This document shows, one piece after another, positions 6,666-36,888 of a stretch of DNA of 37,432 nucleotides. Source of the DNA: a virus; the IMG/VR virus record IMGVR_UViG_3300011113_000485, positions 1 through 37,432 of that record. One strand, written 5' to 3'. Both the position numbers and the translations under genes were made by a program. Below the pieces are notes generated by a model. That model was not told the DNA's origin and did no database searches. It saw nothing but the letters and a program-made list of their open reading frames with translations. Each line of letters starts with the position of its first letter. Position 1 is the stretch's first letter.

Positions 6666-7039
6666 TATGCTGACCTCCTGTAATGCTTTGACAACCGTTG
6701 GAAGTCGGCTTTCCACTCTTTGTTAGTGGAAGGGTAGATGTTGAAAGACAAACCAATCAACTTAGTTAGGCCCTCAACTGACCACTCACAATATTGATGC
6801 TCTGGAAGGCTGATAAACTCGCTGTATTCGGTCACCCGCTTCAGAATGACGGGGATGCTCTTTTCAGAAATCTCCCGAACCCCAATCACCATGAACAGAT
6901 TCCCAAGGTTAAAAACCCGCCATGACCAATAAGTCTCACCCGTCTGATACCCGTTGATTGGGTCATTTTGGGTAGCTACGAAAGTGAGGGAATCGCGTCC
7001 CTCTGTTGTCATCTTGCTTGTATCGAAATGCAATGCCAT
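6665..7039 (-). CDS. Hypothetical protein, first gene of the leftward operon
   Basis: This 124-residue protein is not recognised. It contains strand-rich segments (YWSWRVFNLGNLFMVIGVRE) and a C-terminal helical, basic end (KADFQRLSKHYRRSA). The ATG has GGAG five bases upstream, and a sigma-70-type promoter lies 40-68 bases before it, giving a leader of roughly 33 bases. As the promoter-proximal gene it is probably the most strongly expressed member of the operon, which suggests an early role such as host inhibition or counter-defence. That is an inference from position only. Confidence 0.65.
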   Translation of the reverse strand: MALHFDTSKMTTEGRDSLTFVATQNDPINGYQTGETYWSWRVFNLGNLFMVIGVREISEKSIPVILKRVTEYSEFISLPEHQYCEWSVEGLTKLIGLSFNIYPSTNKEWKADFQRLSKHYRRSA

Positions 7040-30191: not shown

Positions 30192-31361
30192 ATGCCATTA
30201 AACATCAATAATTTAACCGCCGGAACTCCGGTTACATTCAATGCCCAAACCTCGGTGCAACGGATGGTATTCGATTCTGCTACCGTTGCGTTTCGCATTG
30301 TTAACAACACCACCGGAATTGTCACCGTATTGGAAGAAAACTCTGATAGCTTTATTTGCCAAGTGGATCCGGGTGCAACTGCTTTTGGTCTGATGCAGAA
30401 CGCTATTCTGGTTGAAGCTCAATACTCCGGCCCGGTAACGATAACCCCTTACACTTGGACTCCGGTTTCCAGCACGGGAACCAATACGTTTACTGGTGGC
30501 AATAAATTCATTGCACCAAACACTTCCAGTAGTGGCATTGTAGTTCAGGCAAATGGCACTATATCTGCTGATGAAGTAGTTGTTGGAACAAACACAACCT
30601 GTATCTTTCAAGGCATTGAAACAACTAGCCTTGGTGCAATTCATCAATTCCATTCATGTGGATTTGTAAACGTTCCTGCATTTTATCGAACCAATGGAAC
30701 GTATGCCAGCAAGACACCATTGTTGATAAACGATCCAATTTGCCAAATTCAATTTAATGGTTGGAGAGGTACTTCATTTAGAACTGGTGGTGCAATTACT
30801 TCAACAGCAACGGAAAATTGGTCTGCCACAAATTGTGGTGCAAGATTAAACTTTCTTACCTGTGCTGATGGAAGTGCCAATGCACGTTCTGCTTTAATTG
30901 TAAGGCAAGACGGAACCACAGAACCACAATTTGGTATTCGCTTTGGATCTACTGGATTGTCGGTGCTTTCAAACTACGAGGAAGGTTCTTGGACTCCAAC
31001 GTTTACCGGAACCGGAGTCACCATTACCTATACCTCTAGGGTGGGAAGCTACCGCCGAATCGGGAACTACGTTTTTGTCAATGCAACCGTAGTTTTCGCA
31101 ACGTCCACTTCAACGGGTGCAAAAGTGACTGTAACCGGGTTGCCGTATACGCCGTTGGCAGGTGAAGTTTATACCGGGAGCGGAATTTTAAGCGCAACTC
31201 CAGTCATAAGAGGCACATTGACAACCGCTTACAACAATGCCTTTCGGATTTCCGCTATTGCTAACATTACTGCTGACGGAGAATTTACTGACACCAACAT
31301 TAGTACCTGTATAACTAACGGTTATACAATGAGTATCAACTTGACCTACAAGGTAGCCTAA
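30192..31361 (+). CDS. Tail fibre-like protein, copy 1
   Basis: This 389-residue protein has an N-terminal domain (about residues 1-95) that is nearly identical to that of the next gene (AVLEENSDSFICQVDPGA in family terms), so it is probably the common attachment domain. Residues 96-250 are divergent and beta-rich. The C-terminal region has GLSVLSNYEEGSWTPTFTG, a 'YEEGtWTP' block common in phage tail proteins, followed by a strand-rich domain with YRRIGNYVFVNATVVF. The pattern is that of a fibre whose tip recognises a host glycan or surface. A paired copy follows four bases later. Confidence 0.75.
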   Translation: MPLNINNLTAGTPVTFNAQTSVQRMVFDSATVAFRIVNNTTGIVTVLEENSDSFICQVDPGATAFGLMQNAILVEAQYSGPVTITPYTWTPVSSTGTNTFTGGNKFIAPNTSSSGIVVQANGTISADEVVVGTNTTCIFQGIETTSLGAIHQFHSCGFVNVPAFYRTNGTYASKTPLLINDPICQIQFNGWRGTSFRTGGAITSTATENWSATNCGARLNFLTCADGSANARSALIVRQDGTTEPQFGIRFGSTGLSVLSNYEEGSWTPTFTGTGVTITYTSRVGSYRRIGNYVFVNATVVFATSTSTGAKVTVTGLPYTPLAGEVYTGSGILSATPVIRGTLTTAYNNAFRISAIANITADGEFTDTNISTCITNGYTMSINLTYKVA

Positions 31362-31365
31362 CAAA

Positions 31366-32565
31366 ATGCCATTAAACATCAATAATCTAACCGCCGGAAC
31401 TCCGGTTACATTCAACGCTCAAACGTCCGCTCAACGGATGGTATTCGATTCTGCTACCGTTGCGTTCCGGATTGTTAATAACACTCCGGGGATTGTCACC
31501 GTTATGGAGGAGAACTCCGATAGTTTTATTTGTCAAGTGGATCCCGGTGCAACCGCCTTTGGTCTGATGCAGAACGCTATTCTGGTCGAAGCTCAATATC
31601 CGGGGCCAGTTACCGTAACCCCTTATACTTGGGTTCCCGTATCTGCAAATTCTCCTCAGACGTTTACTGGAAATTACACAACCAACTTCCCAATTCAGAT
31701 CAATGCTGGGAACGTGTCGCAGGTTGAACCAAACAATTACAACACAAACCCTAGTTTTGCCCAAAATAATGGCTTGCAGGTTCAAGGTTATGACAGCGGT
31801 GGAAGTGTCGCACAATTAATTGTTTCATTTTATACTGCAGGTACAAATGCACAATTAGCATTTAATAGGTGCAACGGCACATACGCTTCAAAGACTGGCA
31901 TTTTGAACAATAACGCTTTAGGTGCAGTCAATTTTTATGGAATGAAAACCACTCAAACCAATGCACGTTTTGCAGGTGGTTGGCAATGGAACGCTTCAGA
32001 AGATTGGGGAACAACCAATCATGGAAGTCAAGCGATTGTCACCGTGTATCGAAACGTTGATGGTGCGTCCAGAAGTTCATTTATCAGAAATGATGGTGTG
32101 TGGGAACCGGGATACGGAATCCGATTTGGAACTACTGGTTTGTCGGTGCTTTCTACCTATGAGGAAGGGACTTGGACTCCGGTGGTTAGTTCAACCGGAG
32201 CAACGTTTAGCGTTAACGCTACGGAAACTGTTGGAAGGTATATTCGGATCGGGAAACAAGTTACGGTTGAATTTGCGGTTCAGTTGTCCGGGGCAACTAC
32301 CGGAACGACCACTAACCAAATCAACATTGCGGGGATGCCATACGCTTCTCAACTGCTTGGCACGGGTCACAATCACCGTCCGGTTCTTATCGGGGAAGGT
32401 TTTACTACCACCGCAACGAGCGGGCTGGTAGCGAACCTTATTGCATCAACCGCATTTAATGTTGCAGTTGCGTCCACTACAGGTGGAACGGCCGCATTAA
32501 CTGCTGCAACATTTAGTGGTTCTGGATCAAGAATCACCGGAGCGTTTACCTATCAGGTGGCATAA
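31366..32565 (+). CDS. Tail fibre-like protein, copy 2
   Basis: This 399-residue paralogue of the preceding gene shares the first 95 or so residues at nearly 90% nucleotide identity by eye. It keeps GIRFGTTGLSVLSTYEEGTW at the C-terminal boundary, but its middle and C-terminal parts are unrelated (for example AGNVSQVEPNNYNTNP). Duplicated N-termini with different tips suggest two receptor specificities or a mixed fibre. The start is four bases after the previous stop. No enzymatic motif is seen. Confidence 0.75.
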   Translation: MPLNINNLTAGTPVTFNAQTSAQRMVFDSATVAFRIVNNTPGIVTVMEENSDSFICQVDPGATAFGLMQNAILVEAQYPGPVTVTPYTWVPVSANSPQTFTGNYTTNFPIQINAGNVSQVEPNNYNTNPSFAQNNGLQVQGYDSGGSVAQLIVSFYTAGTNAQLAFNRCNGTYASKTGILNNNALGAVNFYGMKTTQTNARFAGGWQWNASEDWGTTNHGSQAIVTVYRNVDGASRSSFIRNDGVWEPGYGIRFGTTGLSVLSTYEEGTWTPVVSSTGATFSVNATETVGRYIRIGKQVTVEFAVQLSGATTGTTTNQINIAGMPYASQLLGTGHNHRPVLIGEGFTTTATSGLVANLIASTAFNVAVASTTGGTAALTAATFSGSGSRITGAFTYQVA

Positions 32566-33414: not shown

Positions 33415-33699
33415 TTATACGCTATTTACCTTTCCAAGTTCCATCCTTAGGATCAACGGTGTTTGTTCTCCGGCATAAAGTCCGGCGACGTTGAATTCAA
33501 AGTGTTCGATCGCGTCTTCCTCGGTCATTCCCTCTTCCATGAAAATACGAATGATTTGGTCTGCCGAGTAGACAAGCCTTAGCCCTTGGCCGTGGACTTC
33601 CCCTACTCCTACAACGGCTGCATCCAGCCCATCGAACTTGATGACGCCTTCGCTTTCGTCCAGCAGATTAAACAATTCTTCTACGTTACTTACTATCAT
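33415..33699 (-). CDS. Conserved small phage protein of unknown function
   Basis: This 94-residue acidic protein resembles from memory a widespread phage family seen in many tailed phages, with the pattern 'FdGLDaAvvGvg ... lvYsad.ii ... ma.eDA.ehfeFNvaGlYaGE.tPl'. Here FDGLDAAVVGVG, LRLVYSADQIIRIF and HFEFNVAGLYAGEQTPLIL are clear. The function is unknown to me. It overlaps the methyltransferase gene by 14 bases and is the last gene before the terminator, so it is co-transcribed with the modification genes. Confidence 0.7.
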   Translation of the reverse strand: MIVSNVEELFNLLDESEGVIKFDGLDAAVVGVGEVHGQGLRLVYSADQIIRIFMEEGMTEEDAIEHFEFNVAGLYAGEQTPLILRMELGKVNSV

Positions 33700-34459
33700 T
33701 TTCTATTGCGTTCCTTATTGCCATAAGCAATGGGTAAACCTGTTGCGGAACCACCGCGTTGCCTAAAGAAGTTATTCTGTCCACCCGATCGGAAACCCCA
33801 TTAGTGTTTCTACGAACTCGGGGTTCAGATACAACCGTTGGGTTGACTTCCCATTGTTTCCAGTCACCTCCTCTAATTGGTTGCCAATGACGGCGACTAG
33901 CATCTTCCCGTGGGCTTTTACCTTTTCGCTCGGGGCCAAACGCCTCACCGGTTTGTAGTCTTGACTTGCAAGTGGTGTGGGCAAGAATGAAGAGTCTTTT
34001 ACGCTTATGTGTGGCTCCAATATGATAAGCTCCATAATTCGCCCATCCAACGCTATACCCCAACGCGGCCAAGTCATCAAGGAGTCGTCTGAAGAAGAAT
34101 CCAGATTCAGCGGCAAAGAGTCCAGAGACGTTCTCTCCCAAAAACCATGCTGGTTTAACTTGCTCCAACACTCTAACGGTGTCGGGCCACAAATTTCGCT
34201 CGTCGTCAGAGGCTTTCTTTTGGCCCGATTGACTAAAAGGCTGACAAGGCCAACCAGCCGAGAGTAAAGTAACTTGTTCGCGATAAGGTGTTCCATCAAA
34301 CTCTTTTATGTCTCCAAAAATTGGCACGTCCGGGAAGTTCTTTCTTAATACCCGTTGGCAGAACTCGTCCTTTTCGACCATGCAAATATTCTCAAAACCG
34401 GCCCATTCTGCTGAAAGGTCTATGCCACCGATCCCGGAGAATAGACTCATGTGAGTCAC
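33686..34459 (-). CDS. C5 cytosine DNA methyltransferase
   Basis: This 257-residue enzyme transfers a methyl group from S-adenosylmethionine to cytosine C5. Visible motifs are I (FSGIGG, 7-12), III (GDI, 49-51), IV with the catalytic cysteine (GWPCQPFSQSG, C72), VI (LGENVSG, 108-114), VIII (HIGATHKRKRLFILA) and X (RITSLGNAVVPQ). The GTG start at 34459 shares GTGA with the stop of the previous gene and has GGAG nine bases upstream, better than the ATG three codons later. The target-recognition region between VIII and X is short (about 60 residues), so the target is probably short. No partner restriction enzyme is visible. Confidence 0.92.
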   Translation of the reverse strand: MTHMSLFSGIGGIDLSAEWAGFENICMVEKDEFCQRVLRKNFPDVPIFGDIKEFDGTPYREQVTLLSAGWPCQPFSQSGQKKASDDERNLWPDTVRVLEQVKPAWFLGENVSGLFAAESGFFFRRLLDDLAALGYSVGWANYGAYHIGATHKRKRLFILAHTTCKSRLQTGEAFGPERKGKSPREDASRRHWQPIRGGDWKQWEVNPTVVSEPRVRRNTNGVSDRVDRITSLGNAVVPQQVYPLLMAIRNAIENDSK

Positions 34460-34611
34460 TTTCTATTTCTCCAATCTCTATATTCTCCAAGCATCAGCAA
34501 ACAAACTATCAGAAAAAAGAAACACTCAACCGATAATGCGCCAAATCCAACGATTAATGCATTGGCCGTATTCCATGCTTCTTCCTCATTCATTTTAATT
34601 TCTTTTCCCAT
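34456..34611 (-). CDS. Small single-pass membrane protein, 51 residues
   Basis: This gene is short and lies between two modification genes. It begins MGKEIKMNEEEAWNTANAL, has one hydrophobic segment (about residues 19-41, GALSVECFFFLIVCLLML) and ends in the charged EYRDWRNRK. The start lies 22 bases inside the upstream Mom-like gene and the stop overlaps the methyltransferase start by four bases (GTGA), so translation is coupled. Its role is unknown. A membrane-located partner for the modification genes or an independent exclusion protein are both possible. Confidence 0.6.
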   Translation of the reverse strand: MGKEIKMNEEEAWNTANALIVGFGALSVECFFFLIVCLLMLGEYRDWRNRK

Positions 34612-35153
34612 CTAACTTTTGGAGCGGTTGCTTGTGATGGATTTCTTTTTCTTGAAGTTCTTGTCCATTCCCCGCCTACGCTGTTACCTGATATTTCCCA
34701 ACCGGACGCTTTGTAAATTGTTCCCGAGTGAACCTCCGTGTCTTGATAAGAAATTAAACGATCCAGTTCAGGAAACCGTTTTTTAATATCTTTGACCATC
34801 CATGCGATGAATCTGCTTGCTGTATTTTTGGGGGACAACTCTGAAATTGCCAAACGGCGAAGTTCGTAAACGTTTCCTTTAATCATCCTTGCAACCGGCA
34901 TTGACCAAATAGCACAAGCGTAAAACCTGTTGTCAAATTCTGCTGCATAGCAAAACCCATAAGTTCGGTAAATATTTGACGGAACCACGTTTGGCAATTT
35001 ACTATGCCAAAGACGGTTTAAATCTATCGCCGTTGGAACGTCAATTGGAACAAATTCAAACTGGAGCGGTGAGATCGGAATCACACCGTCTCCATCCATT
35101 TGGAACAATGGTTGTGCTATTGGTACACCATCACCGCTAAAGTATAAACTCAT
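34590..35153 (-). CDS. Mom-like GNAT-fold DNA modification protein
   Basis: This 187-residue protein resembles the Mom family of phage Mu, which converts adenines to acetamido-adenine and blocks many restriction enzymes. Residues 96-152 carry the recognisable core YELRRLAISELSPKNTASRF, then KDIKKRFPELDRLISYQD and GTIYKASGW. The family shares a GNAT-like fold and often the 'SxR...lkkr.p....iSy.D...GtIYqasgw' pattern. No Com regulator is recognised. The gene is coupled to the 73-residue gene upstream (17-base overlap) and to a membrane protein downstream. The chemistry it performs here cannot be inferred from sequence. Confidence 0.75.
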   Translation of the reverse strand: MSLYFSGDGVPIAQPLFQMDGDGVIPISPLQFEFVPIDVPTAIDLNRLWHSKLPNVVPSNIYRTYGFCYAAEFDNRFYACAIWSMPVARMIKGNVYELRRLAISELSPKNTASRFIAWMVKDIKKRFPELDRLISYQDTEVHSGTIYKASGWEISGNSVGGEWTRTSRKRNPSQATAPKVRWEKKLK

Positions 35154-35358
35154 CCTTCCAACCTTCCCTCTCTGCTATCTCGACCAGCTCCTTACCGTTG
35201 ACAATGCCGAGGCTATCTTTTGTAGAAAACTTCGACAAGCCAAACATCCCTCCGTATGTTCGCTTGAATCCAGTTGATGACTCAACATTGTTCGCTCGGT
35301 AGTCGGTGTTGAGGTTGAGCCAACCCAAGGCTTTCAACGCTCTTAGGTAGTCACTCAT
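35137..35358 (-). CDS. Hypothetical protein with N-terminus shared with the upstream gene
   Basis: This 73-residue protein starts with MSDYLRAL, as does the PP-loop gene directly upstream (MSDYLRVL). The shared stretch covers the start codon and the next six codons. The remainder (WLNLNTDYRANNVESSTGF ... ELVEIAEREGWKDEFIL) is not recognised, although YGGMFGLSKFSTKDS could contact nucleic acid or protein. It starts immediately after the previous TAA and overlaps the Mom-like gene by 17 bases. A small partner of the neighbouring enzymes is plausible. Confidence 0.6.
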   Translation of the reverse strand: MSDYLRALKALGWLNLNTDYRANNVESSTGFKRTYGGMFGLSKFSTKDSLGIVNGKELVEIAEREGWKDEFIL

Positions 35359-36135
35359 TTATACACCGCACATCCCTTCGCATTCAAACTTAAAAAGTTC
35401 TTGTTGACCTTCATGCAAGAAAATAACATTAGACAAAGGTTTTCCGCTTTTGTGCAAAAATGACTCCCCATCCAGCCTATAAAGGTTTCGTATTTTTGTG
35501 TCAAAGTCAACTGCTTCTGCAAACTCATCTGGACGCCTCTCCTTCATCTCCAGCCAAAAAGCATCATTGTGAAATGGACACGCTATGCACGATGATTTCG
35601 GCGTATTCCCGAAACCTTGCTGGTTCAAGTAAACCATGCAAGCTGAACGAGACATTCCAATCTCCAAAAGTGGCCACCTATTTTCTATATATTTAACATC
35701 GGATGCTTTTGCTCGGTGCGATTCATCAGTTGAAATGCCGATCCACAATTCAACCCGTTTAGGTTTACGCTCCTTGTAAATTTCTCTGATTCGTTTTCGG
35801 ATCGGCTGAATTTTGTAGTGATAAGTACACATTCGGTTTATCATCCCAACTCTTCCTTCACCATTAGTTGTAAAGAACGGCATATTTGCAAACCACTCAC
35901 CCGATTTACCTCTCTCTATGGTTTCGGTTTTAATATTTCCAGCAGTCACTATTTCAATCGGGATACTCCCCATCTCTTGCAACTTTTTAAGATGCGTGTA
36001 CACCGATTCTGGTTCATATTGTGTATCTGCAAAAATAGCTAAATCGGGTTTTGTTTCCCACTTTTCAGCCATTAGGTAAAGTGCGGTTGACTGTATTCCC
36101 GCACCAAAGCTTAAAACTCTCAAGTAGTCACTCAT
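35359..36135 (-). CDS. PP-loop ATP pyrophosphatase / PAPS reductase-like protein
   Basis: This 258-residue protein starts at ATG 36135, which has GGAGG seven bases upstream and shares ATGA with the preceding stop. The N-terminal SFGAGIQSTALYLMA (9-23) is the PP-loop that binds ATP in PAPS reductases, NAD synthetase and thiouridylases. DLAIFADTQYEPESVY follows, then the cysteine motifs MCTYHYKIQPIRKRI and KSSCIACPFHNDAFW, ending in FECEGMCGV. This phage subfamily is common but uncharacterised. The cysteines suggest an iron-sulfur or zinc site. A role in sulfur or nucleobase modification of DNA is possible, given the neighbours. A sulfate-assimilation role is less likely in a phage. Confidence 0.82.
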   Translation of the reverse strand: MSDYLRVLSFGAGIQSTALYLMAEKWETKPDLAIFADTQYEPESVYTHLKKLQEMGSIPIEIVTAGNIKTETIERGKSGEWFANMPFFTTNGEGRVGMINRMCTYHYKIQPIRKRIREIYKERKPKRVELWIGISTDESHRAKASDVKYIENRWPLLEIGMSRSACMVYLNQQGFGNTPKSSCIACPFHNDAFWLEMKERRPDEFAEAVDFDTKIRNLYRLDGESFLHKSGKPLSNVIFLHEGQQELFKFECEGMCGV

Positions 36136-36405: not shown

Positions 36406-36740
36406 TCCTCCCCCTCCAAAATCTCAACGCACTTAAATTTTTTACCAACAGCTTCCATCGGAATATTCTCTCCCAACCACGAACCTTTTACCATCTCTAT
36501 GGAAGGAATGAACTCAAACTCAATCGGTTCGGACTTATGTTCAAATAATGACTTGATGCCCAAAGTAGGGAACAATTCTTCTGGAATAAATGCATCAGCA
36601 TATTCCCACCTAAGTCCAATGCAATCGCTGTGGTAGTACTCTAGCACCACCTCGCTGCCTCCTATCTTATACATCTTGCCATTCACCTCAACATGGGTGG
36701 CATTTGCCAGACTACACTCCTCAAACTTCTTCTCGCTCAT
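36402..36740 (-). CDS. Hypothetical acidic protein
   Basis: This 112-residue protein is not recognised. It is acidic with strand-rich segments (HVEVNGKMYKIGGSEVVLEY) and a C-terminal KKFKCVEILEGEE. The start has GGAGG at good spacing and lies 20 bases inside the preceding 55-residue gene. The stop overlaps the next ATG by four bases. It is probably a small accessory protein of the modification operon, with no visible catalytic motif. Confidence 0.6.
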   Translation of the reverse strand: MSEKKFEECSLANATHVEVNGKMYKIGGSEVVLEYYHSDCIGLRWEYADAFIPEELFPTLGIKSLFEHKSEPIEFEFIPSIEMVKGSWLGENIPMEAVGKKFKCVEILEGEE

Positions 36741-36888
36741 TTATCTCCTCCTTTTCTCTTGCCAAATCTATCAACGTTTGCTCGCTGATGATGTCGGTCT
36801 CACCATCAAAACTGATGTTAAAAATGCCTCTGTTCGTCTCAACAATCTTGAATTCGTCCAAGATTTCTATTGCTCTTTGTATGGTCAT
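36721..36888 (-). CDS. Small hypothetical protein, 55 residues
   Basis: ATG 36888 overlaps the upstream TGA by four bases. The product begins MTIQRAIEILDEFKIVETNR and ends with a charged helix (LIDLAREKEEINEREEV). It is helical at both ends with a short strand (GIFNISFDGETD) between, and resembles no family I know. Its last 20 bases overlap the next gene. It is too short for ordinary prediction cut-offs but fits the coupled pattern of the operon. Confidence 0.55.
   Translation of the reverse strand: MTIQRAIEILDEFKIVETNRGIFNISFDGETDIISEQTLIDLAREKEEINEREEV

Follow-up and report, generated by a model that had tools for sequence, protein, structure and literature searches.

A viral cytosine methyltransferase gene that probably encodes two nested subunits within a modular DNA-modification cassette

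In canonical C5 cytosine methyltransferases (MTases), motif IX (LTPxECERLMGFP) is in the same frame as the other motifs. In the two-polypeptide C5 MTase M.EcoHK31I (YGGCCR), an alternative frame within the gene of the large subunit encodes the small one, of about 176 amino acids (aa). The large subunit of this enzyme contains motifs I-VIII and X together with the predicted target-recognition domain (TRD) and the small subunit only motif IX, while in M.AquI motifs I-VIII are located in one polypeptide and the distal variable region and motif IX in the other (PMC3404938). In this study a viral DNA of 37,432 nucleotides (IMG/VR record IMGVR_UViG_3300011113_000485, positions 1 to 37,432; referred to as the window) was analysed computationally. 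One of its genes, encoding a C5 MTase (frame A), contains a second gene in the +1 frame (frame B) and belongs to a run of minus-strand genes which also encodes a PP-loop protein (PP), a small protein of 73 aa (p73), a Mom-like protein and a membrane protein. It is likely that A and B are two nested subunits of one C5 MTase, and that the anti-restriction cassette around them includes Mom as an independent enzyme and PP as an optional gene. A two-frame arrangement of this enzyme type has already been described as an oddity; here it was seen in many phages and bacteria.

Frame B and the divided motif set

The initial annotation of the window had overlooked the nested gene, an open reading frame (ORF) of 174 codons within the MTase gene (Table 1). 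Its product matched phrog_1008 with an E-value of 2.5e-17, and in the loci fetched for comparison all matches to the frame-B profile that overlapped an MTase fell in the +1 frame (50/50). Synonymous codons of frame A were shuffled while the frame A protein and its codon usage were kept. Under this shuffle the open +1 stretch was obtained in 0 of 1000 trials for 30 of 41 nested genes and in at most 22 of 1000 for the others; the value for the window gene was 6 of 1000. The +2 frame of the nested genes was unremarkable in the same test. The frame-B motif also led to 96 bacterial genes, of which 63 reached 3/300 or less for the +1 frame and none did so for the +2 frame.

The pattern of substitutions was also examined by codon position. 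Outside B the first, second and third positions of frame A changed in the ratios 0.10:0.05:0.30 and 0.09:0.07:0.25, the third position being the most variable. Beyond motif VIII, where the two frames overlap, the ratio was 0.22:0.12:0.12 (Fisher p=4e-29), and most change fell on the first position of A, at which the codons of B have their wobble base. Where B overlaps motifs I-VIII, third-position change of A was halved (0.15). The same was seen at close range: in the window and its relatives L002 and L003 variable sites were distributed 9:2:1 over the A positions in the overlap after motif VIII, as opposed to 4:1:14 outside (p=0.001), and in the window family variable sites amounted to 6/327 where B covers motifs I-VIII versus 19/243 (p=0.0007). 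The shuffle and codon-position results therefore show that both frames are under selection, with frame B leading after motif VIII, and dual coding of the MTase gene is well supported.

Frame A matched PF00145 (1.1e-43) and phrog_363 (1e-68) and contains motifs I-VIII and X with the invariant motif residues, but no canonical motif IX. A motif IX-like sequence, LNPEFVETLMGFP, is present in frame B. Of the 52 nested genes, 46 carried motif IX in frame B and one carried it in frame A, whereas 10 of 12 genes without a frame B had it in frame A. Along the DNA the order of the elements is canonical, with motifs I-VIII in A followed by the variable region and motif IX in B and by motif X in A. In a profile-profile comparison (hhalign) of B with canonical C5 MTases the sole match was at motif IX (E=1.4e-4, probability 53%). 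Sequence searches with frame B in PDB and Pfam gave nothing credible.

The AlphaFold2 model of frame A was confident for residues 1-168 and 236-257, and residues 169-234 had predicted local distance difference test (pLDDT) values of 35-44. It aligned with M.HhaI over 196 residues (Z 24.6, root mean square deviation 2.4), and no TRD was predicted in frame A. On these results frame A resembles a C5 MTase lacking its small domain, and the absent motif IX is carried by frame B. Residues 169-234 of A, in addition to their low pLDDT, lie in a region that evolves for frame B, which argues that the TRD is in B, although B alone folds without confidence. The variable part of B, judged by its position and variability, is presumably the target-recognition region.

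According to the model proposed here, subunit A would be catalytic and provide motifs I-VIII and X, and subunit B, produced as a polypeptide from an internal start wholly inside the A gene, would provide motif IX and probably target recognition. Both would assemble into one working MTase, as reported for M.EcoHK31I, with B binding to A and setting the specificity. Some observations weigh against this model. The AlphaFold2 prediction for B alone was poor (mean pLDDT 48), only a C-terminal hairpin and helix reaching moderate confidence, and it had no match in PDB, so that a TRD fold for B is only putative. The predicted TRD of M.EcoHK31I has been placed in the large subunit (PMC3404938), unlike the assignment of target recognition to B, and early ATG codons for B were only modestly in excess (77 observed versus 53 expected).

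Distribution, variants and alternative readings

Bacterial and archaeal genomes were scanned for the frame-B motif at the DNA level, blind to the presence of an MTase. At least 119 stretches were found. In 76 of the 80 bacterial loci listed the motif was nested in a C5 MTase, in its +1 frame. Of the remaining four, three were too near the end of the locus, and the other, L264, has a split MTase whose end is in frame B. By record title the carriers of frame B belong to Clostridia, Actinomycetota, Pseudomonadota, Planctomycetota and others. A search of plasmids with B gave few records, annotated as cytosine methyltransferase, as hypothetical protein or not at all. We lean cautiously towards the view that C5 MTases whose motif-IX/target-recognition subunit is encoded wholly within the catalytic gene, in the +1 frame, form a large class in phages and bacteria, the specificity evolving in B while A passively tolerates the changes. 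No statement on a nested MTase in phages, or on its spread among phages and bacteria, was found in the open-access papers searched, which is no proof of novelty.

Variants of the arrangement were also observed. In L086 (3283-4659), L087 (63-1607) and L264 frame A stops after motif VIII, and motifs IX and X are both in B. L037 (2908-3384) combines a canonical one-frame C5 MTase, with motif IX in frame, and a shorter +1 ORF of 159 codons that looks selected, lacks motif IX and ends near ILRRAEKRGKELPPML, unlike the usual end of frame B; L046 was grouped with it, and the two may represent a second kind of nested gene. In L162 and L165 (3205-4572) frame B extends well beyond the end of the MTase with repeated YPTPT-like units, and would be a nested gene that has outgrown its host gene.

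Frame B could instead encode an independent protein, for example a regulator or an anti-restriction protein, that was overprinted on the MTase and is not a subunit of it. The selection acting on B itself, the overlap of its N-terminal half with motifs I-VIII, the lack of a known fold for that half and the +1 ORF beside the canonical MTase of L037 would all agree with such a protein. It is nevertheless improbable, since motif IX is absent from A almost exactly where B occurs, the B motif was so regularly nested in a C5 MTase in the bacterial loci listed (76/80) and the motif split of M.EcoHK31I is identical. The canonical motif order along the DNA would also result if ribosomal frameshifting joined A and B into a single polypeptide, but this requires a +1 shift and then a compensating one. 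Considering also the excess of early ATG codons in B and the annotation of B in Paenibacillus phages as a gene lying inside another and having a start of its own, frameshifting is highly improbable. Long +1 ORFs can arise from codon bias in some genomes, so frame B might be a by-product of codon bias or of the conservation of frame A with no selected product. The synonymous-shuffle, codon-position and motif-complementarity tests all oppose this reading and leave it hardly any probability. Two nested subunits of one MTase are thus the preferred reading of frames A and B.

The cassette around the methyltransferase

All ORFs named in the initial annotation, which had described five consecutive minus-strand genes, were present and closely packed, and the region assigned to them also takes in a sixth gene, g94, at its lower end (Table 1). 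The tight overlaps noted earlier exist between p73 and Mom, Mom and the membrane gene, the membrane gene and the MTase, and the MTase and g94, whereas PP and p73 only abut. These overlaps of starts and stops suggest translational coupling from p73 through g94. The membrane protein is a single-pass protein (hydrophobic 19-mer, mean Kyte-Doolittle value 2.48). Its length had been given as 51 residues, but the shorter form is more likely because the homologue in L008 starts at the corresponding position and lacks the upstream ATG. Further homologues occur in L002 and L003, and both p73 and the membrane gene were detected in close relatives only.

Table 1. Genes and repeated start sequences of the minus-strand run in the window
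Feature	Position	Strand	Remarks
PP-loop ATP-pyrophosphatase-like protein, SspD/PAPS-reductase-like	35359-36135	minus	ATG start, 258 aa; PF01507, phrog_424, PADLOC SspD
p73, small gene	35137-35358	minus	73 aa; homologues in L002, L003, L008
Mom-family GNAT, predicted adenine acyl-type DNA modification enzyme	34590-35153	minus	187 aa; PF25680, phrog_1384, 8bv8 alignment
Single-pass membrane protein	34456-34593	minus	45 aa from MNEEE; 51 aa if start at 34611
C5 cytosine methyltransferase frame A, likely alpha subunit	33686-34459	minus	GTG start, 257 aa; PF00145, phrog_363
Nested +1-frame gene B, likely beta subunit	33772-34296	minus	174 aa, ATG 34296; phrog_1008; C-terminal end LNPEFVETLMGFPIGWTE
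g94, final gene of run	33415-33699	minus	phrog_13182, 5.6e-23
Candidate seam copy 1, PP start	36117-36135	minus	ATGAGTGACTACTTGAGAG
Candidate seam copy 2, p73 start	35340-35358	minus	ATGAGTGACTACCTAAGAG

Profiles of Pfam and PHROG confirmed the earlier assignments to the Mom family, to the C5 MTases and to the PAPS-reductase-like PP-loop proteins. The Mom-like protein matched PF25680 with 4e-13 (49.9 bits, curated cut-off 27.1) and phrog_1384 with 1.5e-21, and its alignment with the solved Mu Mom (8bv8) was collinear but weak. It is shorter than Mom of phage Mu, with which its GNAT core (ELRR..P.N......SYQD..H.GT.YKASGW) aligns. Residues R100, D138, H142, Y147 and W152 were invariant among 88 homologues; R100, D138 and Y147 align with the core of Mu Mom, where their counterparts are catalytically important.

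The PP protein matched PF01507 (PAPS_reduct) with 4e-6 (27.4 bits, cut-off 22.5), PADLOC SspD with 3.5e-19 and, as by far the closer family, the phage family phrog_424 with 7e-46. It shares an S-x-G-x-G-x-Q-S-T PP-loop and conserved cysteines with SspD, DndC and PAPS reductase. Conserved cysteines had already been recognized in it, and six of them (104, 167, 184, 187, 253, 257) were invariant in 86/86 homologues. Its DNA-recognising and ATPase partners in the Ssp and Dnd systems (SspB/SspC or DndD/DndE) were not matched by PADLOC among the ten further window proteins scanned, which are part of the ORFs of a record that may be incomplete, and within this scope an Ssp/Dnd system was rejected.

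The comparison of gene neighbourhoods across phages suggested by the initial annotation was carried out with 80 Mom loci and 80 PP loci of viruses, with SSB loci as control, followed by dereplication. No recurrent Mom-PP unit was found, an outcome that the initial annotation had named as refuting its proposal. Of 56 Mom loci one carried PP, and none of 29 PP loci carried Mom, so that a Mom-PP pathway was rejected as a recurring unit. Before dereplication an MTase was counted in 24/80 Mom loci and 32/80 PP loci. The apparent enrichment of MTases near Mom was gone after dereplication and comparison with the control, the frequency (11/56) being at the rate of the SSB loci (10/62, p=0.64). Near PP the MTase was moderately enriched (12/29 versus the same 10/62, p=0.016), which was the sole nominally significant excess. 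In L098, L102, L124, L126, L127, L129, L139, L143 and L151 a nested C5 MTase is immediately followed by the PP gene, and the end of the MTase overlaps the PP open frame; this recurrent pair occurs without Mom.

It had been proposed that PP, p73, Mom, the membrane protein and the MTase act together as a single modification system and that the transferred group, sulfur or another, is made by PP. The genes are contiguous and appear translationally coupled, PP is SspD-like with six invariant cysteines, the excess of MTases near PP points in the same direction, and SspD and DndC transfer sulfur to DNA (PMC12707154). However, PP is missing from the entire record of L003, where the order is p60-p73-Mom-membrane-MTase-g94, and in L008 (PP-p73a-p73b-membrane) neither Mom nor an MTase lies near. 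These relatives, the near absence of joint Mom and PP loci and the lack of matches to Ssp/Dnd partners in the window proteins make such a system very unlikely. Of the original proposal, the general anti-restriction role of Mom and the MTase is well supported, whereas a single joint system based on PP chemistry is not. Nor is p73 a dedicated partner of PP, because it was found without PP in L002 and L003 and is duplicated in L008. The two tandem copies in L008 (6784-7191) have diverged, and p73 therefore represents a small paralogous family in these phages.

The separation of PP and Mom in the siblings and in the wider viral loci indicates that the cassette is modular and that joint chemistry of the two is unlikely. 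PP and p73 start alike (ATGAGTGACTAC(T/C)T(G/A)AGAG). Near-identical starts (ATGAGTGAYTAC...) were found at both genes of the window (Table 1), at 383 in L003 and at 6784 and 6975 in L008, the latter belonging to the two p73 copies. In L003 the p60 gene passes directly into the shared start sequence of p73, the junction to be expected if PP had been lost or gained by recombination between the PP and p73 starts. The shared start sequence is likely a recombination seam at which small gene cassettes are exchanged.

In the favoured model the genes of the run are independent and exchangeable and make up an accessory cassette against restriction. Mom would acylate adenines, the C5 MTase would methylate cytosines at sites of its own, and the PP-loop gene would be an optional insert with a separate, putative role. 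The cluster would disguise the phage DNA from bacterial defence enzymes, and the modifications would in this way protect the phage.

Two observations were made elsewhere in the window. The C-termini of p73 and of a 55-aa gene at 36721-36888 resemble each other by eye (ELxxLAREEGW-like), and both possibly belong to one family of small accessory proteins. The adjacent plus-strand genes at 30192-31361 and 31366-32565 have a long, near-identical N-terminus (MPLNINNLTAGTPVTFNAQTS...) and probably arose when a gene for a tail or fibre protein was duplicated in tandem.

Implications and comparison with described enzymes

If the nested design is general, many cytosine MTases annotated as single chains would lack the motif-IX part, and probably also the target-recognition part, in the annotated protein. 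Such enzymes would seem inactive when the annotated frame is cloned with recoded codons, and their specificity would have been predicted from the wrong frame. Long dual coding on the same strand would then also have a widespread example, where the substitution pattern reveals which frames are selected. Both products of a dual-coding gene may then act in the same enzyme, one stretch of DNA evolving as two protein parts of it. The cassette itself is a warning that modification genes packed tightly in a phage operon need not form a pathway and can be a modular collection.

The +1-frame product within a C5 MTase is also encoded by Paenibacillus phages Lily (gp63) and Diva (gp50), whose proteins belong to phrog_1008. 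These records differ from the present analysis in that they contain annotation only (DNA methyltransferase or 'internal gene') and propose no role or mechanism. With M.AquI the window MTase has in common that motif IX is on a polypeptide separate from motifs I-VIII, but motif X of M.AquI goes with motif IX, while the window gene keeps it in frame A. The split in L086, L087 and L264 resembles that of M.AquI more closely, except that the second gene begins inside the first. Compared by description, A and B of the window show the same motif split as M.EcoHK31I. Differences from that enzyme are the phage accessory setting, in which no restriction enzyme was seen, and a frame A without a predicted TRD fold, whose region after motif VIII evolves for B. 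Because of the matching motif split and the nesting, the window MTase is placed in the same kind as M.EcoHK31I, which it fits on the features tested, although the allocation of the TRD to the subunits may differ.

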